Origin: Taxawa tesnikishii (nom. ined.)
Taxonomy: Eukaryota > Ascomycota > Dothideomycetes > Dothideales
Assembly: GCA_030247885.1 (NCBI GenBank)
Contig: JAPDRO010000001.1
Coordinates: 2,764,031-2,828,030 of the forward strand
Direction: 5' to 3'
DNA length: 64,000 bases
Shown here piece by piece: positions 20,806-64,000 of the stretch (positions are counted from its first letter, which is position 1; the number at the start of each line of letters is the position of its first letter). The notes under the pieces were generated by a model. The model saw only the letters and a list, made by a program, of their open reading frames with translations, was not told where the DNA came from and did no database searches. The translations under genes were made by a program, and so were the position numbers.

Positions 20806-23078
20806 CTACCATCCGCCGGAGCCGTAGCCGCCATCAGTGGTGGAGCAGCGCTTGCTCGACCCGGTAACAGTAGTGGTATATTTGGCTTTGGAGACGTAGC
20901 GGGTGACGCTGGCGGATGGGGAGCTAGCGACAGTCGTAACCGTCGCGCTACCGACCGAGGTCGAGTAGTCGGTGACGGTGACGGGGATCGTGGTGGTGCC
21001 GGAGAAAGTGCTCGTGCTGACGCCTGAGCTGACGCTGGTGCTGTAGCTGGTGCTGTAGCCAGTCGTGGTACCTGAGAGGGGGAGGTCAACATAAGGTACT
21101 ATTACAATGCAGGCGTCTGACAGTGGAGGAAGCATGCGCCAGCGTTTCAAGAAGCCGTCGAGCGGACAGAGAAACCCTCTGATGGGACGATCCGTAGAGG
21201 ATTGGTCCGAGGATGCGAGTGTTTGCCACATGCCTGGACAAAACTGTGACACAGCATTGCGGCAAGCACTCGACGATCACTTCCGACGGCCTGCTGACAG
21301 CACCCGGCATGCGATGGTGGTTTATTGGATGACACAAAAACGTACCAGTAACCGTCTGCACGATCGTAGTGGTGTATACGTATGGGCTGGTGTAAGCGGA
21401 GCTGTAAGTTGAAGTGTACGTGTTCTTATCAAATTGTCAGCTTCCATCGTCGTCGCTGTCAATACAAAGTGACATACCGTGTAGGAAACGGGAGTCTCGT
21501 AAGAAGTGTAGCCGGTGAAAGTTGATACAGCGTTGTAAGGTACGGAAGTTGTTGTCGGGACGGTAGTCGTGTATGTAGTCGGCCGGTAGACTGTTCTTGT
21601 GCTATACACGGTCGTCAAACGGTGACCAATGGAGGTCTTGGTGAAGGGGATCCAGCTGCAGGTGCTACCATGCGATGTAGTCGTGGAGCTGGTGCCTAGC
21701 AGGAGTCAGTATACTATCAGGATTCTTAACTCAGCTCACTGGGTCAGGATGCTTTCGTTCTCAACAAGCCGTCTACGGGTGAACCGCCGTCCGAAGTGGC
21801 CGTTCACAGAAGCGCAATGTGTCAGATAGACATCTGCTCGCTGCCCGTTGCAATTACGGTCAAGGGCATTGTGGCAAGTTACCAAATGATCCGACGGACG
21901 ACATGTTGAGAACGTGATGCTTGGCATGTTTTTGTATGTAAAACTTACTCGGGGTAGACGAAGTTCCAGTAGTGGTCGTGTGGGTCGTGCTGCTGCTGGT
22001 GGTCACAGTGGTCGAAGAAGAGGAAGTCTTCGATGTTGTAGTTGACGTGCTGGTGGTGCTGGTGGTGCTGGTGGTGCTGGTGGTGCTGGTGGTGCTCGTA
22101 GTGCTCGTAGTGCTCGTAGTGCTCGTGGTGCTCGTGGTGCTCGTGGTGCTCGTGGTGCTCGTGGTGCTCGTGGTGCTGCGGGTGCTCGTGGTGCTAGGGG
22201 TAGACGACGTGGAAGTCGTGGAAGACGAGGAGCTGCAACCGTGACCACCATAACCACCAAGGCAAGTGGTCGAGCTGCTGCTGGTGGTAGGAGGGTGACC
22301 AGGGGTGGAATAAGTGGTCGAGCTGCTGGTGGTGGTGGGAGGGTGACTAGGGGTGGAAGAAGTCGTCGACGAAGACGTGGTACCTGGCAGAGGTTAGAAG
22401 ATTACGAAAATTCTCGGCATAGCTCAACGGATTCGTTAGATGCCAGTGTTCAACATATGCCGTCCAGCGGATGGAAGCTCCGCTTGGAAGACGACCTATA
22501 AAAAGGCCAGTCCATCATACAGCCATCTGCTTGCCGCCTAGTACAAATTCTCGTAAGGAGGCATTGCGCGGCAAGCAGTCAACCGAACGGCCTGCCAGAA
22601 ACACCGACATCTAACAACGCTCTGTCGGATGCAACATACTGGTACTGGGTGGGCCTGGAGGGGTGCTATAAGTTGTCGACGATGTTGTTACAGACGTGCT
22701 GGGCGTGCTGTAACTATGAGAGTACGACCAAGTCGTACTGCTCGTGCTTGGCGGGCCTGGAGGGGTGGAATGAGTGGTCGACGAAGTCGTAACAGAAGTG
22801 CTGGAAGAGCTGCTGTGACTGTGGCTGTACGGGGTCGAGGTTGACGAAGTGCTGGGCGGGCTAGCAGGGGTGCTGGGAGTGTGAGTCGTAGATGGAGTCG
22901 ACGAAGAGTGGGTGGACGACGAAGATCCACCGTAACCGCCTCCACCATAACCGGGGAGGGTGGAGGAGGAGGAGGAGCTGGAGCTGCCGTAGCCTCCGTT
23001 GCCATAGCCCCCTGGTGCGGCGTTGACCATGCCAGAGGCCAGGAGAGCCAGAACGGCGAAGTTGGTGGAGTACAACAT
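20806..23078 (-). CDS. Secreted Ser/Thr-rich cell-surface protein with long structured introns
   Basis: No named family is recognised. The start ATG at 23078 opens with a signal peptide (MLYSTNFAVLALLASGMVNA, then APGGYG). Five exons: 22640-23078, 21949-22383, 21478-21695, 21346-21424 and 20806-21071. They sum to 479 codons with consistent phases. The mature protein is almost entirely Ser, Thr, Pro, Gly and Tyr, with GYGGGGYGGSSSS stretches, a Ser-Thr-Thr repeat array in exon 2, and few cysteines, consistent with an O-mannosylated wall protein or adhesin. The last residues (KRCSTTDGGYGSGGW) are not hydrophobic, so a GPI anchor is unlikely. Three of the four introns (256, 253 and 274 nt) are much longer than others in the window and related to each other. 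The fourth, 53 nt, seems to end in AAG rather than CAG/TAG. Confidence 0.75.
21072..21345 (-). mobile_element. Introner-like intron D (274 nt)
   Basis: Lies between exons 4 and 5, donor GTACGT, acceptor CTCTCAG. Carries GCCGTCGAGCGGA (near 21153), GAGTGTTTGCC (near 21217) and GCATTGCGGCAAGCACTC (21253). The last two pair as a hairpin, with the outer stem changed to GTG:CAC where intron A has CTG:CAG, a compensatory substitution. Confidence 0.62.
21696..21948 (-). mobile_element. Introner-like intron B (253 nt)
   Basis: Lies between exons 2 and 3, donor GTAAGT, acceptor GCTAG. Shares with intron A the blocks CAAGCCGTCTACGGG (near 21765), CATCTGCTCGCTGCC (near 21829) and GCATTGTGGCAAG (21866), in the same order. 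Distance between outer blocks is about 117 nt. Confidence 0.6.
22049..22193 (-). repeat. Nine-base coding repeat (Ser-Thr-Thr)n in exon 2
   Basis: About fifteen tandem 9 bp units, written on the + strand as GTGCTGGTG or GTGCTCGTG with some GTGCTCGTA. They are in frame with the surface-protein gene and encode Ser-Thr-Thr or Ser-Thr-Thr-like triplets. The unit changes from GTGCTGGTG to GTGCTCGTG partway, suggesting two rounds of expansion. Confidence 0.85.
22384..22639 (-). mobile_element. Introner-like intron A (256 nt)
   Basis: Lies between exons 1 and 2 of the surface-protein gene, donor GTATGT, acceptor CTGCCAG. On the + strand it has three blocks shared with introns B and D: GCCGTCCAGCGGA near 22459, CATCTGCTTGCCGCC near 22526 and GCATTGCGCGGCAAGCAG at 22561. 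The second and third blocks form a perfect 11 bp inverted repeat (CTGCTTGCCGC / GCGGCAAGCAG), so the RNA should fold into a hairpin. Confidence 0.65.
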
Positions 23079-45955: not shown

Positions 45956-47802
45956 ACGTGTTTTATAAGTAAGTCGGCTACCTAAGTAAGTTAACTACCT
46001 CGCGAAACTAGAATACTTATATAGTAACATTACGTAATACCTTAATAATATAACGTATAATATACTTATATTAAAGGAAATATATACTTTATTATCTCTA
46101 ATATTATATTTAAGTAAATTTAAAGTAAGAGACGTACTATAGTAGTATATACTATATTTTAATTAACGCTATAAGACTAACGCGTTAAATAGCGCTTTTA
46201 ACGTAACTATAAGCTAAAATTAAAGCGCCTTATAAAACTAGAAGAAAAAGTAATAATATAGCGTATATTAAATAAGAGTTTACGTAGCGTATTACCCTTA
46301 AAGGGAAACGTATAAAATATAGCGAATAAATTACTAAGAGAGCGTAATAGGAAGTCTATTAGTAAGAACTAAGTTAATAACTTTATTAAGTATATACTTA
46401 AGTTATAAATATAATAAAGCTATTCGTACGATTACTAGTAAGCTACTTATAAGGATCTAGTAGTTATTTAGCCTTAGTTTACGCTTATCTAGTTAATAAA
46501 GGCGAAGTATAATATCTTAAATAAGGATACTTATAACTTTAATAAATCTAGCTTTTTAATAAGTAAAATATTATCTTAACTAGTTATTATAAGCTTAAAG
46601 AAACCTAGTAAATAAAAGAAACTATAGCCTAGTAATTATAAGTAAGTTACTTTAATATAAAGTATTAAGGCTATAAGGCGCGTTATCTTACTCTTTATTA
46701 TCTTTATAAGTAAAGTCCTTATCTTAACTTAGTTTAATAATTTACCTTATAATTAAATTATTAAGGTCTCCTCTACTAGTTAGACTAATAATAAGCTCGC
46801 ACTTACGTAACTTAAGTACTTTAATATATATACGAAGGCTTATACTATTAGAGTATATAGGCTACTTATTATTAATAACTATAAGAGCTACTACTTAGTC
46901 GAATTTTAAGATTACTATAAGGAAAATAATATTATAGCTCTTTATATACTTTTATACTCCTTATACTTACTATAGTTACTTAACGTCGTTTATTACTTAC
47001 TACTAAAGCGCTTATATAGTAACGAGATCTTAGCCTTAGTATATAGTTACGTTTATTATATTATAAAAGAAACCTTTTTAACTACCTTTAAAGTAACTTT
47101 TAAGAAGGCGTTTATATAGGAAAATATCTACGTAAAGTTTCGAGGTACTAGGCTAGTCTTATATAACTTAAAAGCTACATTATTAAAGCTAAATATAAGG
47201 CTACGTACGCTAACGCTACTTATACTAGGTATAGTTAAATAGGAGGCGAAAATACTACGTAACGCTAGCAAAATAAAGGCGTAGTTAATACTAATTTAAA
47301 ATCGTATATAAAAACATTAAAGGTCTCTAGTAAGCTCTTTAAATAAGTAAGTTAAGTAGTTAACTAAGGGCGCTTAGTAGATAGCGTATAAGATAGTATT
47401 AATACGCGAAGAAATAGCGCGTCTATAAGACGTAATTAAAGTAGCTATAAAGCGTAAGAACTATAAAAGGTAATATATATAAATAGAAGAGACTTTAATA
47501 GTAAGTAAAGTAACTAATCTAGTTACTACTAAGGAGGGTAATAGTAGTAATAATAGTAAGAAGGCTACGAAGAAAGTACGCGTAAAGTAGCGTTATAATT
47601 ATTATAGTAAGACTAAGTATAACTCCCGTACCTATAAAGTAGAAATAAAGGATATAAAAAATAGTAACGTTTCTAAATAATTATATACTATTTTATAGAC
47701 TACTATAAAGTATTATAGTATTACGTAATGTTACTAAGTAAGCGTTCTAGTTTCGTAAGGTAGCCGACTTACTTAGGTAGTTAACTTACTTATAAAATAC
47801 GT
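45956..47802 (+). mobile_element. TA-flanked TIR DNA transposon, copy 1 (RIP-inactivated, Fot1/pogo size)
   Basis: Ends in inverted repeats of about 85 bp, outermost ACGTRTTTTATAAGTAAGT at the left and its complement ACTTACTTATAAAATACGT at the right. TA flanks both ends, consistent with a TA target duplication. Length 1,847 bp, TIR structure and TA target match the Fot1/pogo branch of Tc1-mariner. Each TIR contains an internal repetition of TACCTAAGTAAGT-like sequence. The transposase is unreadable because of RIP. Orientation is assigned arbitrarily. Confidence 0.75.
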
Positions 47803-49750
47803 TATAAGTAAATTAATATCTTAGATAATATTCCTAGTAATATATTAAAGGTAATATTAGTAACTATTAATTCTTACGCTACTCTTAGAAGATAAAAATC
47901 TTAAGTTAAGATATTTAAATTATATTATAAAGTAACTCTTAAAGTTAAAGTTAATAAGTTAAAATATTTGCTTTATATAAGTCGAGTTTTTACTATAATA
48001 TCCTCTAAATTAGTCGAGCTTATAACTATATTTTATAGTAGAATACTACTTAATATATACTAAATTATAAGTCTATACTTACGATAATAATATAATAGTA
48101 AGTTAATAATATATATATTAAAGAGTATAATTAAGCGTTATAAGTAAAGTTAAAGTTAATTTTCCTCGTATTATACTTAAGTAACTACCTTTTACGCGCT
48201 AGTTCCTTAGACTACTATTAAATCTATATAAAGTACTAAGCGTAATATAAATAAGATATAAAAGGTAAGATTATATTCTAAAGTATCTTAATTACTATTA
48301 TATTCCTAGTAGTAGTATTAAGGGTAAAATCGACTATAAATAGTAATAATAAAGGATCTAACTATTAAGTAGTTATAAATAGTTTCTATTATCTCTTTAA
48401 AATTAATTCTTAGTATTATATTATTATATATTAAAGTTACTAGTATATAATTATATCTTCTTAAATAAGAATATATTTATAGATTTATTATAAGTATCTT
48501 AACTTATAGTAACGTAGTAATATTATTTCTAAAGTTAAAGGCTTATTTAAGCTTATTAAAGTCTATATAAATATAGTTTATTTAAAGTTAAATAAGTCCC
48601 TTATAGTTAGCCTTTTACTTTACTTTAATAGTTTAAAGTACTATAGAACTAATAGTTAAGATAATACTTACTCTTACGTATATTATATAATATATAAAAT
48701 ATAAGAGTATTATAAGTAAGGTTATAATTAAGTAAATTAGTAAAAGTATAAAAGTAATACTTACTTAAAACGAATTTATACTACTAATAAGATCTAAATA
48801 GATAATTATACTTATTAGTATTTCTTTAAAGTTAAAAGTTAATAAAAGTACTTTAAAGTTTAAGTAGTAAGCCTAGAAGTTTATAGTTAGAGGTAAGTTA
48901 GTTACTAGTATAACTTCTTTTAAATATAAGAAAAGATATTCTTTAAGTAAAGCGTAATATTATATTTAAAGCTAATTACGTCCGCGAATTTAATAAGTAC
49001 TAGTTTACTATAATATTATAACTTAAAGAAACTAGTATTATCTACTATATTTATAGCTTAAAGAAAGACAAAATCTAAGTAGTAATTACTATACTCTTAG
49101 AAGACAAAGTATATTTTCTATAAGTAATTATTAATATAATAGAAGATATACTTAGAGAAGTATATAACTAGTATTTTAATAGGCTTAATAATATACTTAC
49201 TTAATTATATTACGTTATCCTTAGTTAGTTTTAGTTATTATAAGTTAAGTTAATTAGGAAGGTTTAACTATTTAACTTATATAAAGAGCCTAGTACTCTT
49301 AAGGTTTACTTTAAGTTAGTAGTATAATTCCTATTATACTTTAAGTAAGTAGTAATTTATAATAAGTACTATTTTAGTACTAACTTAAAGGAAACAATTC
49401 GACTAAAAGATATTATTAAACTAACAAATAAGTAAAGGATAGTCTAATATAAGCTTTATTAGTTAGTAAAATAGAAAGTAATAAGCATAAATAAAGGAGT
49501 TAAGAGCTAATTAAGAGATAAGTTAGTCGAGTTATAAATACTTATTATTTATTATATTATAAGAGTCTAATAGTACTACTTACTAATATTAAGCTTCTAT
49601 ATTATACTAAGTATTAAGCCGTCTACTTAAGGCTAAATAAAACCTAGTAACTTTAATAATAGTCTATTTATAATAATATAGGTTATATAGTTACTAATTA
49701 GTTAAACTAAGTACTTAACTATAATTTAATATATAGTAAAACTAACTATA
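47803..49750. other. RIP-degraded sequence between the two transposon copies
   Basis: Same TA-rich composition, no open frame. It may be the left part of an element that copy 2 later inserted into, with the remainder continuing after 51594, but no terminal repeats were found to prove this. Confidence 0.45.
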
Positions 49751-51594
49751 ACGTATTTTATAAGTAAGTCGACTACCTAAGTAAGTTAGTTACTTTACGA
49801 AACTAAAACGCCTACGTAGTAACATTACGTAATACTATAATACTTTATAGTAGTTTATAAAATAATATATAATTATTTAGAAACGTCGCTATCTTTTATA
49901 TCCTTTATTTCTACTTTATAAGTATAGGAGTTATACTTAGTTTTGCCGTAATAGTCGTAACGCTACTTTACGCGTATTTTCTTCGTAGCCTTCTTACTAT
50001 TATTACTACTACTACTCTCCTTAGTAGCGACTAAATTAGCTACCTTACTTACTATTAAAGTCTCCTTTATCTATACGTATTACCTTTTGTAACTCTTACG
50101 CTTTATAGTTACCTTAATTACGTCTTATAAACGCGCTATTTCTTCGTATATTAATACTATCTTATACGCTATTTACTAAGCGCCCTTAGTTAACTACTTA
50201 ACTTACTTATTTAAAGAGCTTATTAGAGACTCCTAATGTTTTTATATATAATTTTAAATTAGCGTTAACTACGCCTTTATTTCGCTAGCGTTACGTAGTA
50301 TTTTCGCCTCCTATTTAACTATACCTAGTATAAGTAGCGTTAGCGTACGTAGCCTTATATTTAGCTTTAATAATGTAGCTTTTAAGTTATATAAGACTAG
50401 CCTAGTACCTCGAAACTTTACGTAGATATTTTCCTATATAAACGCCTTCTTAAAAGTTACTTTAAAGGTAGTTAAAAGGTTTCTTTTATAATATAATAAA
50501 CGTAACTATATACTAAGGCTAAGATCTCGTTACTATATAAGCGCTTTAGTAGTAAGTAATAAACGACGTTAAGTAACTATAGTAAGTATAAGGAGTATAA
50601 AAGTATATAAAGAGCTATAATATTATTTTCCTTATAGTAATCTTAAAATTCGACTAAGTAGTAGCTCTTATAGTTATTAATAATAAGTAGCCTATATACT
50701 CTAATAGTATAAGCCTTCGTATATATATTAAAGTACTTAAGTTACGTAAGTGCGAGCTTATTATTAGTCTAACTAGTAGAGGAGACCTTAATAATTTAAT
50801 TATAAGGTAAATTATTAAACTAAGTTAAGATAAGGACCTTACTTACGAAGATAATAAAGAGTAAGATAACGCGCCCTATAGCTCTAACGCCTTATATTAA
50901 GGTAACTTACTCGTAATTACTAGGCTATAGTTTCTTCTATTTACTAGGTTTCTCTAAACATAATAACTAGTTAAGATAATATCTTACTTATTAAAAAGCT
51001 AGATTTATTAAAGTTATAAGTATCCTTATTTAAGATACTATACTTTATCTTTATTAACTAAATAAGCGTAAACTAAGACTAAATAACTACTAGATCCTCG
51101 TAGGTAACTTACTAGTAATTATACGGACGACTTTATTACGTTCGTAACTTAAGTATATACTTAATAAAGTTATTAACTTAGTTCTTACTAATAGACTTCC
51201 TATTACGCTCTCTTAGTAATTTATTTACTATATTTTGTACGTTTCCCTTTAAGGGTAATACGCTACGTAAACTCTTATTTAATATACGCTATATTATTAC
51301 TTTTTCTTCTAGTTTTATAAGGCGCTTTAATTTTAGCTCGTAGTTATATTAAGAGCGCTATCTAGCGCGTTAGTCTTATAGTATTAATTAGAATATAATA
51401 TATACTACTATAGCGCGTCTCTTACTTTAAATTTACTTAAATATAATATTAGAAATAATAAGGTATATATTTCCTTTAATATAAGTATATTATACGTTAC
51501 GTTATTAAGGTATTACGTAATATTACTACGTAGGTATTCTAGTTTCGTAAGGTAGCTAACTTACTTAAGTAGCTAACTTACTTATAAAATACGT
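49751..51594 (-). mobile_element. TA-flanked TIR DNA transposon, copy 2, inverted relative to copy 1
   Basis: The same terminal repeats (ACGTATTTTATAAGTAAGT and complement), flanked by TA, 1,844 bp. Its right interior is the reverse complement of copy 1's left interior (for example ACCCTTAAAGGGAAACGT in copy 1 and ACGTTTCCCTTTAAGGGT in copy 2). The two copies form a large inverted pair separated by about 1.95 kb. RIP differences between copies are scattered. Confidence 0.75.
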
Positions 51595-54500
51595 TAACTT
51601 ATTAATTAATTAAGCTATTTATAATAGTAACTAAGAAATAAAGAAATTCTTCGCTTAGCTTAATAGGTTATATAACTATCTATTTAGACTAGGTAGCTAC
51701 TATCTTATAATATAATCTTTTATAACTATACTTATAAAAAGTAGTAATATAAACTACGAGGAAGTTAACTAAGTAGAAAAGTTAACTACTTAAACGTAAC
51801 TCTTTTATCTTTAAATATTCCTATTATTAACTATAAGCGCTTTTATACTTAGTAAGTCGACTTATTTTAAAGCTAATATCTAGGATATTATTACTACTTT
51901 TAAAAAAGAAATATACTTCGATTCGATAGGTAGCTAGCGTATTTAAGATCCCTTATAATACTCTATATAATCGAATAGTAAAATATAGATTACGCGCTAT
52001 AGTATATAAAATAAAGTAGATTCTCTTAAACGTAAAGAGAAAATATTAGTACGATAAATTATACGTCTTATATATACTAGATTCCCTACTTTACTTACGT
52101 TAGTTATATAAATAGTTAAAGAAGTTTAACGCGAACGTATATAACTATTAAAGACTTTATAATTATCTTCTTAACTAATTAGTAAGAAGTAGCTTAATTA
52201 CTTTAAGACTCGTTATCTTAAGATCTTAAGTATTTAGACTTATTAAATTAAGAGTACGCGCTTTAATACGATAAGTTATAACGCTATAAAGAGGTAATTT
52301 AACGTAGTAATAGAGCTTTTATAAAATATAATTACCCTCTAAAGCGCGTTTATAATATAAACAAATTTAACTTTACTATTAAAGTAAGCTAAATATTAAG
52401 AGTATTAGTTAATATACGCAAGGTATTTAGCTAAAAGGTAATTATAAGTTATTAAGAGTAAATAATAGTAATTAAGTATATATTATAAAATCCCGGATTA
52501 TAGTATTAGTAGTAATACTACTAATATTACTTATACTAATAATACTACTTATACTAAATGTTATAGTACTTACTACGTATACTAGTATATATAGTAATTA
52601 CTATATATACTAATAATTCTAGTATATACTAGTATATTTAACTTATCTTACTAGGCAAATTATTAAGCGAATTACGCTTTAACTTAATACTACGTATATT
52701 TTTATAAGCTTCGAGTAATAACTTTATTTAAAGCGATTTAATAATACGTATCGACTCGTCTATATAAACCGATTTGTCTATTTATATTAAGTCGGTTATA
52801 TATATTAACTCGTCGATATCTATTAAGTTAATAATACGCTACTATTAAGTTACTTAAATTAACTAAGTTATACGTTTTAACTTACTAGTATATATTAACT
52901 TATTAGCTTACCTCGACTTACTAATATATATTAGTCTTCCTCGACGTAAAATATATAATATATATAGATTCTAGTAATATATAACGTTAGTATAAGAGCG
53001 TAGCCTAGTATATTTATTCTATAGTATTTACTTATTTATTAACTTTATCCTTACCTTTACCTTAGCCTTTTTCTTCTTAAGTTAAAGATCTAGTAATTAC
53101 TTCTAAATCGCTTTAAAACTATCCTTATTAAACGGGCGATTATTTTTACCTTATAGTATAAGTATAAGTTTATTAGCCTTAGCGTAAATACTATATAATT
53201 ATAAGTATTAGCCTCGTAGTAGTCTTAACGTTAACTATAGGGAAGCGAGATAAGTAAGGAAGCGAGATAGTTAGCTTAATATAACTTAGTTTATTTTCCT
53301 TCGAGCTAAAGTTTCTCTTTTACTAGGCTCTTAATTACGTAGATAGGCTTAGTATCTTACTTCCTTACTTATCTTACTTTCCCGTAGTTTACGTTAGTAT
53401 ATTTAACGTCCTTTTTTAACCCTTACTTATAAAGTACCTTTATAAGTAAAGGTTATTACCTTTAGCGTATACTTCGATTACCTTCTAGTTTACTATTATC
53501 CTTAAGTATTTATAGATAGTTACGTAATAAATAATAGTAGGGAAAATAGTAAATTACTTAATAATTACTATACTATACTTCTTACTATATTAAACTATTA
53601 TTTAAGGGAATACTCTACTTTAAGTAAGCTCTAAAACTCTTACTCTTATAGTAGCTTTAATTACGTTACTATATCCCGACTCGTTAAATTATTATTTAAC
53701 TTTATATCGTCCGACTTACGGAATATAGCGTAGTCTATAGTAACTCTATAGCTAGATTTTAATAAAGAAGATAATTATTCCTTATAAAGATTAACTTTAT
53801 TTAAATCTTTACTACTATTAATTTCCTTACTATTTAAGCTCTCTTTAGAAGTTAGTTTAGTAAGTATATTTACTTATTTCTATATATTTATTACGTTAAC
53901 GAATTTATTTATATATAAGTCCTTCTTAAGGGTCGCTAGTATAGCTTTAGTAAGGTAACTTTAAATTAGCTCCTAACGTTTTAAATATTAAGTTAACTAA
54001 GTCCTTTACTTTTCCTTAAATAGTTTTACTACCTCGTTTAAGTTAAAGTCTAAATATATTAGCTTACTAGTCTTATTAGATCTATATATTTTAATAACTT
54101 AACTATTAAGGAATAACTATAAAGTAATATAGACTAATATTATAAGGAAGGGTAATAGTAGTTAAAATAACTTAATTATTAATAAATAAATACTAACTTA
54201 GCTTACTTTAAAGTATATAGACTAAATACTCTTTATTATTAAATAGCTAGTATACTTTTAAACTTACGTTCGAATTAGCTTTTAATATTTAGTAAAGAAT
54301 AACGTTAATATACTTTTCTTATCCTTATATTTAAATAAGGCGTTTAGTATATACTTATAAGCTTATTTCTTCTTAAATATAATACTACGATATTACGAGT
54401 AAATTAGCCTTTTAAGTATAGCCTTAATTAAAGTAGTAGTAGTACTCTTACTCTTATAAATAGTTTCGCGAAGCTAGTATACGCTTAGTATTATACCTAT

Positions 54501-57500
54501 TCCGTCGGTCTTTTAATATCTTACCTTAAATCTTATACCTTTATATATAGTTACTAAAATACTTTATAGAGAGTTAGTCTTTAACTTTTTATCTCGGACT
54601 TTTACTTACTTACCCTCGGCTATCTCGAGAAGTATAGCTTCTACTTATAAGGTAGGAAATATTAACTATTTATAGTATTTATTATACGTACGAGTAATAA
54701 GTTATATATATACTTCTAAGTATATCTCGCGCTAGTCTAGTAGTATTACTTATCCTTTTCTTATATTTACGCTATAGTATCTTAATTAGTTTAGTATACT
54801 ACTATCTTACGAGCTACTTACTTAGTTACTAAATTATAAAGAACTAATATTAATTACGTTAACGCTAGCGCCTATTATACTTATATCTTATTTTCTTTTT
54901 TAACTAGAAGGTATTTCCTTAAAGAACGTAAGTAATAGCGCTATTACTAATAGTATACTTACTTACTTCCTCTTATATTACTTCGGAAAGACTAGAGATA
55001 TATAATTAGCCTTCGCTTTTATTAGTACTATTAAGTATAATATTAACGTATATTTATTAAATACGTAGTTACTTATTATATATCTTAAACTCTCCTAGTA
55101 CTATACTACTAAGATATTATATTTATATACTAGTAAGATAGTAATATATAGACGTAAAGTACTACTTACTTTCTTAATATTAGTTTAAAGTAATAGTAGT
55201 AAATATAATATAAACTTTTATCAAACTAGGTACGTACGAATTTAAGTTAAGTCTAGTAGTTTTAGCGTACTAACTAACGTAAGGGAACATTATCTTTTAT
55301 AAGAAATTATTAGTTAACGCAATATTATATAAAGTCTAGTTCGTAGGATATAACTAAGCTAACTAGCGTTTATTTAAAGTAAGCCTAGTAGTTAACTTAC
55401 TATACTATTATTTAATATATAAAGTAGTTTTCCCTACTAGTAGGAAGCTAAGTATAAATATTAGGGCCTAAGTCTTTAGTAATATCTAATAATCCTAGCC
55501 TTCTAAGTACTAGAGTATTTAATACTACTAATCGTATTAACGTTAATATAAGTTAAGCTTTAAGATACTATATAGCGAGTAGTATTACTTAATAAAAGAG
55601 ACCTAATAGACTTATATTTAATTAGTTAGTTATCTACTTAGTTAACTCGGAAATTAATAGGGACTTTATTTCTATTTAACTCGAAACGTAAATTATAGAG
55701 ATTATTAACTTAGGACGCGAGTTACTTATATTATTAAATTACTATAAATGATTTAGTAATCTCTTATAAGTTTACGTGTTTATAGTAAGTAGCGACGTAT
55801 CGAAGGACTTAAGTTTCTTACCTTTAATTCCTTACTTATATACTTTATTATATCTTCTAAGCCTTAACGGCATTTCTAGTTAAAATAATATACTTTTATA
55901 TAAACTATTTATATAGATACTCTCTTCTTTATATAATACTCCTTTGTCTATATACTTTACTTAATTACTCGACGCGACTTAGTAGAAATAAGTAGTAGTT
56001 TAATAATATACTTACGTAGTAGCTTTATATAGTTATAAATCTTATTATTATTTAATCTATTAAGATTAATCTTCTTATTAGTTCTAGTATTTAGTTTATT
56101 TAAATAGTCTTATATACGTCTCTTAAATCGTACTTCTTATAGCCTAGTAAGCTCTTTTATATAGGCTTCTTTAATACTATTTCTATTAATAGTTTATAGC
56201 TTCTTTATAACTATCTCTAGTTAAAATACGCGATAGTTTACTTAGTATTACTACTCGAGAATAAGCAAAAAAGGCGTCGACGAGCTAATAACTTTTATAA
56301 ACTAACTAGATATATAGGCTATTTATAGCTCTAAATATTTTAACGTAGTTAGTACTAGTAGTATAATAAAGAAAGTTAAAAGTTACTTTAAGAGTATCTT
56401 ATATATTAAAACTACCTTCTATTACTACTTATTATCTATTAAAGGGTAATCTCTAATTTAATTATTATCTTATTCGAGGAAATTAGCCTCGCGTTAGAAA
56501 CTATAGTTAAATTTTAATATTAATATAAATATATCCTAGTTTAAATCTTCTATTATAATTACGCTAGAAGAAGTACTATATAACTAACTACGCGCTAGTT
56601 CGTAAGGTTAATAAAGCGCTTTAAAAGTACCGTCCCTTTATATAATTAATATTATTCCTTATTACGTCTTATATTTTATAGTTACTATAAAAGTTTAAGG
56701 AGTATTAGTAAACAAATAAGTATTATTTAGTAAGTAGTATTTTAGCTACGTATCTTTCTCTCCGTTTACGTACTTTATATCCTTACTCTTAGGGAGTCCT
56801 TTATATTATTATCGGAAGTTTATACTTATATAATATACTAAGTCTCGAAAGAGTACTTAACTCTTCTTTATTTATATAATTTTAACTATATTTAGAAAGT
56901 AACTTTAAGTCTACTTAGACGTAAAAATATACGTAAATATTTCTTTATATATAGCGTTCTTTTTAGAAATCGAGTAGAATATTTACTTAAGTAAGCCGCT
57001 TTATATAATCTTATATTCTACGCGTATATAAAATTCTTTATAGTTATTATTATCTAGACTAAGACCCTCTTAAAGACTACTATATTTAAGTTAACTATCT
57101 AGCGACTAAGTAAATATAAGTTTAGTAATTTATGTTATTATTATCGTCCGAGTCGTCTTACTTAAAGTAGCTAGTTTATTTAAGTTAATATTATATTAAC
57201 TAATAGCAAAAGATCGTAGTTATATCTTATTAAAAAACGAGGTAAATATTAGTATAATATAGTTAGATCTATTAATCGTATAGCCTCGTTATACTAATAT
57301 ATTATATAAAGTATAGTAGCTTAATATAAAGGGTTACTATTATATATACTATTATATTTGGCCTAGATCTTAATATTCTAGGTTATTATTATACGTATAT
57401 ATCCTTATACTTATTACCTCGAGTTAATAGGACTATGCTTACGTTATATATAAGTTAACTAAGGTTACTTATATATATACTCTTAAAAAGTAACGTTAAC

Positions 57501-57665
57501 TTATTACGCTTTTCCTTATTATCGAAAAGAATACTCTATAAATATAATAACTTCGTTTAATATTAGCTTCGATAATAGTAATATTTAGGCGTATAGTTTA
57601 TATAATTACTCTCTTTTACTTATATATAATATCTCTATTACTAGATACGCTAAACTATAGTAAAT
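51595..57665. other. RIP-degraded sequence, probably former retroelement(s)
   Basis: Six kilobases of TA-rich DNA without reading frames. Palindrome-rich TA sequence lies near 52490-52650. No intact LTR pair, primer-binding site or polymerase motif could be recognised by eye. Confidence 0.45.
53225..53396. repeat. Small inverted-repeat element (MITE-like), about 170 bp
   Basis: Arms of roughly 54 bp face each other: left contains GGAAGCGAGATAAGTAAGG and right contains CCTTACTTATCTTACTTTCC, its complement with a few RIP-type differences. The central spacer is about 65 bp. Size and structure suggest a miniature inverted-repeat transposable element; the family is unknown. Confidence 0.6.
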
Positions 57666-58131
57666 CTAAACGGCCTACTCGTAGAAGTCAAACGAATGGC
57701 CACGATTCGTTTGCTTTTGCGTGGGCTATAACCCTAAGGGTTAGAGGAACGACCACGATTCGTTTGCACCTGTTGACCACGATTCGTTTGCCTTCCCGAG
57801 CCCCAACCTTCTCGAAACCCACACACTATACTGTCATAAGGTTATTCTCTCTGCATGCCAAACACCACTCATATATATGCCATATACATGGAACATCAAG
57901 GGCGGCGGTCTTAAAAGGAAAAAGATGAGGCGCCTTGTGCATAGGCCACTCCCGCATTTTCGCAGGGCGGCCTCTCCAAACAAAGACCAGCCCTGTGTCT
58001 ATGCGACGTGATCAGTACGCTCTAAACAATTGATCCTGAGCATCACATGGATCCTTTAAATCCTTAGAAAGGTAATATAGCTATGTCTGGCCTCGCAAGT
58101 ATGGCAGCCGTGAAGGCAAGCCAAGACTCAG
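57666..58131 (+). promoter_or_regulatory. Region upstream of the telomere-linked helicase with repeated motif and telomere-like palindrome
   Basis: Composition returns to normal at about 57668. The motif CCACGATTCGTTTGC occurs three times (57700, 57753 and 57777), the first preceded by its partial complement CAAACGAAT so that CAAACGAAT..ATTCGTTTG forms a hairpin. Between the first and second copies lies TAACCCTAAGGGTTA, two telomere-type half repeats head to head. These sit 340-430 bp before the helicase start and could be protein-binding sites; that is inference. Confidence 0.55.
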
Positions 58132-61100: not shown

Positions 61101-62563
61101 ACAACACACTTCACGAAATACGCACGAAGCCTGATCGTCCAGCAGAAACTCGATCGAATCGTGATCGACGAATGCCACCTGACGGTGACTGCCGTTGACT
61201 ACCGATCGAGCATCGTCGACCTTACTGCGGTCCGCAATCTCAGGACGCAGTTTGTCTACCTGACAGCCACACTGCCTCCGTCCATGAAGAGGAGTTTGAG
61301 GAGCGCAACTACCTCTACCGTCCGACAACCATCAGAGCATCGAGCAACCGACCCAACATATTCTACATGGTCCGCAGGGCAGACCCTCGCAAAGGCAGCC
61401 TTCTGGAGCAGAGTGCGGTCGAAGCGCAAGACGCGTGGCGCGACTCCGACCTGTTCGATCATTCCCGTGACAAGATCGTCCTATACGTCCGAACGTGTGA
61501 GGACGCGGACAGCCTGTGCCAACTGCTTGGTTGTGCTGCATACACCGCAAAGAGCGGAACGCCGGAACAGAAGAAGCTCATCGTTGATCGCTGGATCCAT
61601 ACCTCCGACCGCCCGTATCTCGTTGCCACGACCGCTCTTGCCGAAGGCTTCGACCACGCTCATGTACGTCTGGTCATGAACGTAGGGGAGCCGGACTCGT
61701 TGGTCACCTTCGCGCAGGAGTCGGGTCGGGCCGGCCGCGACGGGATGGAGGCGTACTCGATGGTTCTCCTGCCGGCGACGTGGCAGGCACAGCTCGAAGA
61801 CGACGTCGACGTCGGTTCGGAGCAGACGGGCAGCTGCAGGGACGACGTGTCACTTCGCAAGCGACGGGACAAGCAGGCCGTGCACAAGTACTTACGAGGC
61901 GAGCAATGTTTCCGAACTTCGCTGAGCGAACACCTCGATCTCGCTCAGCACCGAAGGTGGTGCATGCCGGAAGACGTGGCTTGCGACGTCTGCAAAGCGG
62001 CTCACGAGGATCCAATCGCAGCCTCGGACGCGACAAGACGGCAGACCGCCCACACCGGACTCGATCTCATCCAGCAAGAGCGGCTGCAGGCTCACTCCGA
62101 ACTTGTCAACTACCGTCTGGACCTGGCCAGCGTGCGCGGGACATGCTTGCTCTGCCGTGCGATGGACGAGGAATGGAAGCACGAGTTCTCCAAGTGTGCC
62201 CGGCGGCATGAGGTGTTTCACGAGCGCAGTCGAGTACGGCAGCGGCACGAGACACGCGGACGAAAGTGGTTGCGTCCGTACACGAGCTGCTTCTGGTGCC
62301 TAAACCCTCAGTCCATCTGCCAAAGGGCTGAGCTCAGCAAGACCAGTAAGGAAGAAGCGTGTGAGCACGGAGACGTGGTCCTGCCGCTCTGTTACGGGAT
62401 ATTCGTGAGCGCCGGAGGAGCCAGATGGCTAGAGGACCACTTCCGGCGCAGATTCGCCGGGGTGGAGGATTTCTTTGACTGGTTGGGAGAGGAGACAAGA
62501 TTTGGAGGCGGAATGGCGGTACAGGGAGTCAGAGTAGCGGCAAAGGCTTTATTGTCGTTCTAA
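58132..62563 (+). CDS. Telomere-linked RecQ-type helicase (TLH) with N-terminal zinc fingers and recombinase-like middle domain
   Basis: Subtelomeric DNA helicase family found beside fungal telomeres. The N-terminus has a C2H2-like finger of the DUF3505/OrsD type (CIHCQYAVVPSQLAKHLRVH) and a second CPYICRTPRGMQDHCERQH. A middle domain of about 250 residues precedes the helicase. Helicase motifs: Walker A LPTGAGKSLSF, Walker B/DECH box IVIDECH, motif III LTATLPP, motif VI QESGRAGRDG. A Cys-rich tail follows (CDVC, CLLC, CFWC). Five single-base losses break the frame, at GGGG 59491-59494, 59561-59564, 59864-59867, 60333-60336, and AA 61286-61287. With these restored it is 1,479 codons with no stop, so it may be functional. 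GC content is normal, so it has escaped the neighbouring RIP. It is transcribed towards the telomere. Confidence 0.88.
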
Positions 62564-62604
62564 GATAGCGAGGTCAGAGACAACTAATAGCAACGACCTA
62601 TAAG

Positions 62605-62707
62605 AAAAAACAGAAGAAGTAGTGAAGGAAAAAACAGAAGAAGTAGTGAAGGAAAAAACAGAAGAAGTAGTGAAGGAAAAAACAGAAGAAGTAGCGAAGG
62701 AAAAAAA
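62605..62707. repeat. 24 bp tandem repeat downstream of the helicase
   Basis: Four exact or near-exact copies of AAAAAACAGAAGAAGTAGTG-AAGG plus a partial fifth; the fourth copy has AGTAGCG. The unit length is a multiple of three but no start or frame supports coding. Confidence 0.85.
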
Positions 62708-63840
62708 TAGATAATAGCTTAAGAGGTAAATACGTTAGGTCCTTACTAGCTCCGACAAGCAAGAAGAGTCCTAACAAAAAGTAAACGCCTAATAATAAGT
62801 TAGTTAGAGTAGTTAAGAAGAAGTCTAATAGATAAGGAAAGTAACTTAGTTAAATAGACTTAAGCTAAGTTATAAAGAAGTTAAGAAAGAATCCTAAAGT
62901 ATAATAAAGTTCTTCTTAAACCTTAGGGATTATATAGGATAATATAGAACTAAGAGTTAGGGTTTAGATAAATAAGGGTAAAAAGTAAGTATATAAATGA
63001 AGAAGACGATAATCATAGAAAAGCTAAGTTTTAAAGAAAGGAACAATATTTCTCTATATAGGATTTTCAAAAAAAAAAAGGTAATATTTCTCTCTATAAC
63101 AAGTATAATATTTTAAAGAGAAAAAGATATATCTCTTAAGATAAAAAAAGATAAAAGAAAGAAAAAGAAAAACTAATAGATTTAATAGTAAAGTAAAAGA
63201 AATTAAAGTAAAATAGTGGAATATAAAAGAAAAAGGAGATTAGTTAAGAATAAGAGAAAAAAAGTAAAAAGGAAAGTAAAGTAAGGGAGGATAATATAAA
63301 AGAAAAAGAAGATAATAAAAAGAAAAGGTAATAAAAAGAGAAGGAATAAAATAAGTAAGTTAGAAAATAAGAGTTATAATAAGGAAGGAATAAAGAAAGA
63401 AAGTTTAAGTAATAGGGATATAATAATATAGAAATAGAATAAAAGTAAAAAATAGGAAAATAAGAAGAGATAAAATAAAAGAAAGAAAAGAAATAAAAGA
63501 AAAAAAGTTAAAATAAGAGATTTATAGTAAAAGATAAGGAGTAAAGTAATAGAGATATAGTAATATAAGAATGGAATAATAAATTAGTAGAGTTAAAGTA
63601 ATATTTAAAAAAGAATAAGAAAGTAATAAAAATATAGTAATAAAGTAATAAAATAATAAAGTAGTAAAGTAGTAAAGTAATAAAATAATAGAGTAATAAA
63701 ATAGTAGAGTAATAGAATAGTAGAGTAATAGAGTAGTAAAGTAATAAAGTAGTAGAGTAATAAGATATAAGAAGAATAAAAAAGTAGAGAGATAAAATAG
63801 AAAGAAAGAAATAAAGTAGAAAGAGAAAAAACATTGAAAA
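62708..63840. repeat. Subtelomeric purine-strand simple sequence
   Basis: After about 63000 the written strand is almost free of C and mostly A and G, broken by TA and GTA. Degenerate GTAATARA-type repeats fill about 63640-63770. Open frames on the complement consist only of Leu/Tyr/Phe/Ser runs and are artefacts of the skew. No gene is seen. Confidence 0.75.
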
Positions 63841-63934
63841 AGAGAGTGAGTGAGTGAGAGTAAGAATGAGTAAGAATAAGAGTGAGTGAGTGAGTGAGTG
63901 AGTGAGTGAGTGAGTGAGTGAGTGAGTGAGTGGG
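63841..63934. repeat. (GAGT)n tetranucleotide tract next to the telomere
   Basis: Interrupted GAGT/GTAA units to about 63880, then uninterrupted GAGT up to the first telomere repeat. Its place directly against TTAGGG marks the junction. Confidence 0.85.
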
Positions 63935-64000
63935 TTAGGGTTAGGGTTAGGGTTAGGGTTAGGGTTAGGGTTAGGGTTAGGGTTAGGGTTAGGGTTAGGG
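63935..64000 (+). repeat. Telomere, eleven TTAGGG repeats
   Basis: Perfect hexamer array running to the window end with the G-rich strand 5'-3' toward the right, the orientation expected for a right-hand chromosome end. Confidence 0.98.

Follow-up and report, generated by a model that had tools for sequence, protein, structure and literature searches.

Three introns in one gene of Taxawa tesnikishii belong to an old, dispersed introner family that may derive from a TA-target MITE

Introners that behave as DNA transposons and co-opt splice sites were reportedly described by Huff in 2016. Within the Dothideomycetes, the introner-like elements of Fulvia fulva, Dothistroma septosporum and Zymoseptoria are described, in the part of PMC4457414 available to us, as similar spliceosomal introns that lie in unrelated genes and are longer than ordinary introns, as are the elements reported here. 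Two such elements sometimes occur in one gene, and degeneration with lower identity is noted for D. septosporum in the same partial text (PMC4457414). Inverted repeats or stable structures, together with a preference for AG/GY sites, were noted in earlier work on fungal introner-like elements (excerpts of PMC8469720); a G-TA target would fit that preference. DNA-transposon introners, as outlined in the accessible sections of PMC9860276, have terminal inverted repeats, with one splice site borne by the element and the other completed at the target, and in both respects resemble the family described below. Most of the non-ascomycete introner families in those sections carry terminal repeats or target duplications, and the ascomycete families stand there as outliers with neither (PMC9860276). 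The symmetrical stwintrons of the Hypoxylaceae and Xylariaceae are likewise fungal introns found at dispersed sites, with inverted repeats at or near their termini (PMC8469720 and PMC12403724, each available in part); the accessible text of the 2025 account gives 288 stwintrons with terminal repeats, without target-site duplication and without exon bias (PMC12403724).

The window analysed here, i.e., the whole stretch of 64,000 nucleotides, contains a repetitive gene for which a preliminary description had reported three related long introns (A, B and D). Four introns are predicted in this gene, and removal of 22639-22384, 21948-21696, 21477-21425 and 21345-21072 leaves one open frame of 478 codons for amino acids, from ATG to stop. 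The product is rich in Ser and Thr, and its N-terminus appears to be a hydrophobic, signal-like stretch. The features of the gene used below are as follows.

20806..23078, minus strand: host gene, 478-aa Ser/Thr-rich product, four predicted introns; ATG at 23078, stop ends at 20806
22384..22639, minus strand: introner copy 1 (A of the preliminary description), 256 nt, GTATGT...CTCTGCCAG, phase 1, a full-length family member
22586..22612, minus strand: 5' arm of the internal inverted repeat of copy 1, placed by hand on the sequence, its stem scored across the family
22438..22464, minus strand: 3' arm of the same repeat, likewise hand-placed and scored across the family
22381..22383, minus strand: exon GTA downstream of copy 1, the G read as the element's last base and the TA as target TA
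21696..21948, minus strand: introner copy 2 (B), 253 nt, GTAAGT...CCTGCTAG, phase 1, a family member
21693..21695, minus strand: exon GCA downstream of copy 2, with no TA at that site
21425..21477, minus strand: ordinary 53-nt intron, required for the host open frame, outside the introner family
21072..21345, minus strand: introner copy 3 (D), 274 nt, GTACGT...CCTCTCAG, phase 1 by the spliced frame, a family member
21069..21071, minus strand: exon GTA downstream of copy 3, in line with the family-wide bias

The 53-nt intron gave no match to the family profile in a scan of the window. Its acceptor, ATAAG, has A at position -3, which is unusual in fungal introns. Elsewhere in the window, the contig terminates in telomere repeats of the TTAGGG type (63931-64000). 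About 1.3 kb of A/G-rich sequence lies before them, with a GC skew of 0.43 and an AT skew of 0.36 over 62001-64000. The block 46001-58000 has 21-28% GC compared with 50-59% over most of the remaining window, a composition such as repeat-induced point mutation would leave.

Local alignment confirmed that the three long introns are related: the pairs scored 29, 28 and 36, whereas dinucleotide shuffles averaged 11.4-11.8 with a maximum of 21, and none of 1000 shuffles per pair reached the observed score. The shared blocks quoted in the preliminary description are present in the window sequence; their spacing, put there at 117-122 nt, came to 102, 98 and 100 nt when counted by hand from start to start. 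The family profile detects the three introns at 4.7e-50, 2.3e-42 and 6.9e-39, all three having been training rows, and a profile built from six copies finds additional copies along all or nearly all of its positions. Full-length relatives running from GT to AG were found in different genes of the same genome, so that the name introner-like elements proposed at the outset was upheld. That the three window introns are members of an old and dispersed family of look-alike introns is, in our judgement, close to certain.

Further copies were found genome-wide, giving at least 69 in 29.37 Mb (34 contigs). A first set of 61 distinct elements on 19 contigs came from pattern and consensus searches (E < 1e-6), seven more non-coding elements from a search with a non-coding consensus, and one more from a pattern of the element end. 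The non-coding consensus search returned 15 places, namely its own three, the seven new elements and five known introners. Because candidate scoring covered the best 40 of 50 in one search, 69 is a lower bound; capture-recapture among four patterns gave a rough 38-120 copies from hand-counted inputs, and 13 of the 14 matches of one search pattern were family members. Elements are about 259 nt long. A strict filter for length, GT and AG was passed by 42 of the 61 elements of the first set, which form the curated set and are alike over the whole intron, ending at GT and AG (the acceptor of one was set by hand). The 19 omitted are three non-coding copies ending in CAC and 16 that are partial, dimer-like or lack clear splice sites. 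At C23:1570212-1570600 and C29:1337287-1337700, two partial family copies each lie about 220 bp apart in equal order, and these pairs could be a longer, dimer-like subfamily.

Excision of the element joins an open frame of at least 150 nt on each side in 33 of the 42 curated copies, compared with 483 of 1950 random excisions of equal size in the same regions and with 13 of 42 in antisense; the frame is therefore kept on excision, as in introners. Phases scored across the 33 open copies numbered 11, 13 and 9. The third window copy is counted among them in a frame other than the true one, the automatic frame scan having chosen a different frame because of the 53-nt intron just upstream. Ten spliced fragments, chosen by hand from the 33, were scanned against Pfam, and domains span the junction in seven (Abhydrolase_1, TauD, Patatin, IBR, HET, RSN1_TM and p450), the TauD domain crossing by five residues only. 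A DEAD domain stops before the junction in one of the other fragments, and two fragments have no family. The DEAD-box fragment reads VGG|MDM over the junction, which we take to be conserved in Rrp3-like helicases. With seven Pfam families across junctions and 19 contigs occupied, the host genes are unrelated. Pairwise identity among the 42 curated copies averages 0.559 with a maximum of 0.716. Introners in the wording of PMC4457414 (as partly available) are near-identical copies in their hundreds; with a mean of 56%, a maximum of 72% and at least 69 copies, the present elements are introners in a wider sense only, i.e., a degenerate family, alike over its full width and not active.

The exon that follows these introns is biased at its first bases. 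Across the 42 curated copies the downstream exon has G in 34, T in 36 and A in 35 at its first three positions, then C or T in 37, and the base preceding the intron is G in 31. TA at exon positions +2 and +3 was found in 29 of 42 copies versus 2 of 23 controls, introns from the same regions picked by a heuristic of splice pattern and frame rather than from annotation (Fisher p 2e-6); the bias was measured independently of the non-coding set. The introns themselves start with GTA in 41 of 42 copies, the G being one that selection on GT forces. The C or T that follows GTA in 37 of 42 is left unexplained by a TA target alone. When intron start and downstream exon were matched locus by locus over the 42 copies, agreement did not exceed that of shuffled pairings; a fixed TA cannot show up in such matching, so a duplication is left unproven by it. 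A locus-specific duplication of four bases, GTAC, was considered and rejected, as the fourth base matches in 13 of 42 copies against 16.6 expected and five of six readable non-coding ends have no G before TA.

A second group of copies lies outside coding sequence. The three first recognized appear, from our reading of the translations, to sit between or upstream of genes, their setting having been judged on flanks of about 600-1500 nt and without a family search. They start ATACGTGG, ATACGTGG and AAACGTGG and end CCAC|GTAA, CCAC|GTAC and CTAC|GTAG. In three non-coding copies (C31:619582, C12:373413 and C32:629326) TA adjoins both ends, a fixed TA for which duplication would be demonstrable only with an empty site. 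Among the seven further copies, four end in ACCACG, followed by TA twice, CA once and CG once, and three end in CAGG or TAGG. The TA at the non-coding ends is thus imperfect, with one copy starting AAACGTGG and two having CA or CG after CCACG. The four ACCACG copies, which lay outside the training of the consensus, end in CACCACG or TACCACG; the consensus itself was built from the three first copies, and the introner consensus served to break its ties. An additional copy in L108 starts TACGTGGTGG, but the search pattern already contained those letters and the start is therefore not independent support. The possibility that the CAC-ending copies are AT-AC introns was rejected, since they appear to lie between or upstream of frames, one of three lacks an AT start, and the end is shared in the non-coding clade.

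In an unrooted FastTree phylogeny of the 42 curated and ten non-coding copies, the ten form one clade (support 0.984) with long tips. Mean identity is 0.577 among the ten and 0.504 between the non-coding and curated sets. Intron-like open frames accompany one of the ten, versus 33 of the 42 curated copies (p 1e-4), which is what would be expected of unspliceable insertions surviving outside exons. Seven of the ten have no AG at the end and, as they stand, could not have multiplied as spliced introns. The base before TA in six readable non-coding 5' ends is A, A, A, C, G and C, so that G occurs in one of six, a count that omits the AAAC copy and four copies with unreadable 5' ends; if that G were borne by the element and decayed in 27% of cases (an assumed rate), P would be 0.007.

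The ends of the non-coding subfamily, TA|CGTGGTGG on the left and CCACG|TA on the right, the latter with no 3' splice site, look like terminal inverted repeats that adjoin TA. When TA is excluded, the left end of the non-coding consensus (CGTGGTGGTCGACAAAATAATATCAGA) and the reversed right end (CGTGGTAGAGGTCAGAATATCATCAGA) match at 20 of 27 positions, a value that none of 20000 shuffles reached. The ends of the introner consensus, which contains no non-coding copy, match at 17 of 27 positions in the register predicted from TA, one of the 17 being an appended exon G. Two of 20000 shuffles reached 17, and eight slid registers gave 2-10 matches. Since both tests compared consensus sequences with simple letter shuffles, terminal inverted repeats, as known from DNA-transposon introners, are present here at the consensus level only (17/27 and 20/27), and those of the introners themselves are weak.

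Altogether, these observations make it probable that the window introns are all decayed members of a single introner family, and that this family moved as DNA, either as a TA-target (Tc1/mariner-like) MITE itself or as a derivative of one. For the more specific proposition that the family is itself a TA-target MITE whose subfamilies differ by a single base of the right repeat (CCACG versus CCAGG), with a donor composed of target G, TA and CGT, we lean only slightly towards acceptance. The branch site in question, CTGAC, is of the fungal type. Under this scheme, a transposase acting in trans would move the family as DNA, and insertion at a TA preceded by G would create the donor GTACGT from the target G, the target copy of TA and the element end CGT. 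The right terminal repeat would supply the branch site CTGAC, and a change of one base from C to G, turning CCACG into CCAGG, would create the acceptor CAG|G, after which the exon would begin G-TA. Since the element's last G would replace the target G in the mRNA, the original reading would be restored on excision. Insertions with CCACG, or at a TA without a preceding G, would be unspliceable and would survive only outside exons.

Two other routes by which the family might have spread were weighed against movement of a MITE as DNA. Excised intron RNA may have been reverse-spliced into other transcripts or into transcribed DNA, a route favoured for fungal introners by earlier authors (PMC9860276 and PMC8469720, in the parts available) and consistent with element ends that fall exactly at splice sites and with junctions that keep frame. 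Taken alone, such a route gives no reason to expect the GTA bias of the downstream exon, a subfamily that lacks an acceptor and yet multiplied in non-coding DNA, or terminal repeats in register with TA. Unless every one of them acquired its present end only after insertion, the seven splice-incompetent, long-tipped copies must have multiplied unspliced, which favours DNA movement, and we regard the RNA-based route as unlikely. Less likely again, in our view, is that the introners spread by some other route, the non-coding subfamily having split off late and acquired its CCACG end and repeat-like termini by change and chance. The tree, being unrooted, would accommodate this, as the three of ten non-coding copies that end in CAGG or TAGG branch beside those ending in CACG, and either end type may be the ancestral one. 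The introner consensus itself, however, has the in-register repeat matches described above, and the exon TA bias was obtained without recourse to the non-coding set.

The internal features of the window introns bear on two further explanations, one of their origin and one of their structure. The preliminary description suggested that the introns were gained recently or copied from one to another within the gene, and a repetitive gene with all three introns in phase 1 and two downstream exons starting GTACCACG could have given rise to them by duplication or gene conversion. Mean identity within the trio is nevertheless 0.523, below the 0.559 average over all pairs of the 42 curated copies, and each copy has its nearest relative at another locus, copy 1 at C12:974561 (identity 0.673), copy 2 at C15:204662 (0.589) and copy 3 at C9:196018 (0.611); the best rank of one window copy in the relative list of another is 11th of 41. 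Being less alike than an average pair, the window copies lend no support to copying within the gene, which we consider very improbable. Clustering of three is not peculiar to the host gene either, as two more trios, each within 2 kb, were found at C11:498677-500288 and C16:56013-57081. In the tree, tips are long and inner branches short, a pattern that we read as the trace of an old burst.

As for structure, the introns had been said to carry a covarying hairpin with a compensatory change in its outer stem, and the hairpin, or inverted repeat, is real. It could be an RNA structure selected for bringing the splice sites together, in keeping with single-intron folding energies of -79 to -95 kcal/mol (without a shuffle control) and with a named 19-pair stem that is paired in 80.8% of cells over the 42 copies, four outer pairs having been excluded as misaligned, when slid stems are paired in 21-49% only. 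The covariation, in contrast, did not hold up, for stems with shuffled partners retain 80.1 +- 0.5% pairing (60 of 500 equally high) and cells changed on both sides number 22 versus 17.6 in shuffles (58 of 500 equally high). RNAalifold gave no consensus pairs over the 42 copies, and Rfam at gathering scores gave no matches in the whole window. Covariation beyond relatedness, the mark of a conserved structured RNA, was thus absent from these tests, and an ancestral inverted repeat decaying independently suffices to account for the pairing. Selection for an RNA structure is accordingly judged improbable; the hairpin is a decaying inherited inverted repeat with no clear sign of upkeep through paired changes.

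If the family moved as a MITE, its transposase would have come from elsewhere. Of 195 candidate matches to DDE_1 (Fot1/pogo-like), 150 were scored; contig C2 carries about 120 of these, and four of the 150 were read. Those four are about 1.85 kb long and TA-flanked, with 24-30 of 30 matching end bases starting ACGT. They are thus like the introner family in their TA flanks and in terminal repeats that begin ACGT, but differ in length, in carrying a transposase frame and in repeat sequences unlike CGTGGTGG. No partner transposase with the family ends was found among the four elements read of the 150 scored, and a 29-base end pattern searched for a partner element gave two matches, both of them family copies. 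The DDE_1 elements show that TA-flanked DDE transposons exist in this genome, not that any of them mobilises the introner family. Many of the matches on C2 (1,163,921 bases) have open frames of 500-700 aa, and this contig looks like a transposon-packed contig or an accessory chromosome. Twelve DDE_1 matches share a score of 95.7 bits, and seven of the twelve are no more than about 45 kb from a contig end (C4:32086, C9:681485, C10:690127, C14:646634, C16:9808, C23:41622 and C32:15303), like a subtelomeric set.

That these elements are introners is ordinary; the transposon signature is what is unusual. From the families of PMC4457414 the present one is set apart, going by the descriptions in the accessible text, by identity of at most 72%, the GTA exon bias and the unspliced, TA-adjacent sister subfamily. 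Stwintrons are reported, in what is available of the accounts cited above, without exon bias and without target duplication, whereas the present family has an exon bias and is not a twin intron. The ascomycete families of PMC9860276 are reported, in the sections available, to have neither terminal inverted repeats nor target-site duplications; in the present family, the donor would be made up with a fixed TA and a target G. Under the method given in those sections, a match common to all introns is treated as ambiguous, and a fixed TA would on that basis go uncounted as a target-site duplication (PMC9860276). Among the titles and abstract openings listed in searches of the open literature, none reported that an ascomycete introner originated from a MITE or a TA-target element. 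A possible reason for missing such an origin is that a fixed two-base target does not look like a duplication and that old intronic copies retain the repeat only in degraded form.

The mode of intron gain in fungi is an open question, and fungal introners have been ascribed to reverse splicing (PMC9860276, as partly available). TA flanks, terminal repeats and a splice-incompetent branch that multiplied would together place ascomycetes under the transposon model. If the proposed origin is true, reverse splicing would not be needed to account for the 'seamless, random' insertion of fungal introners, and a single point change would suffice for an ordinary MITE to begin generating introns.
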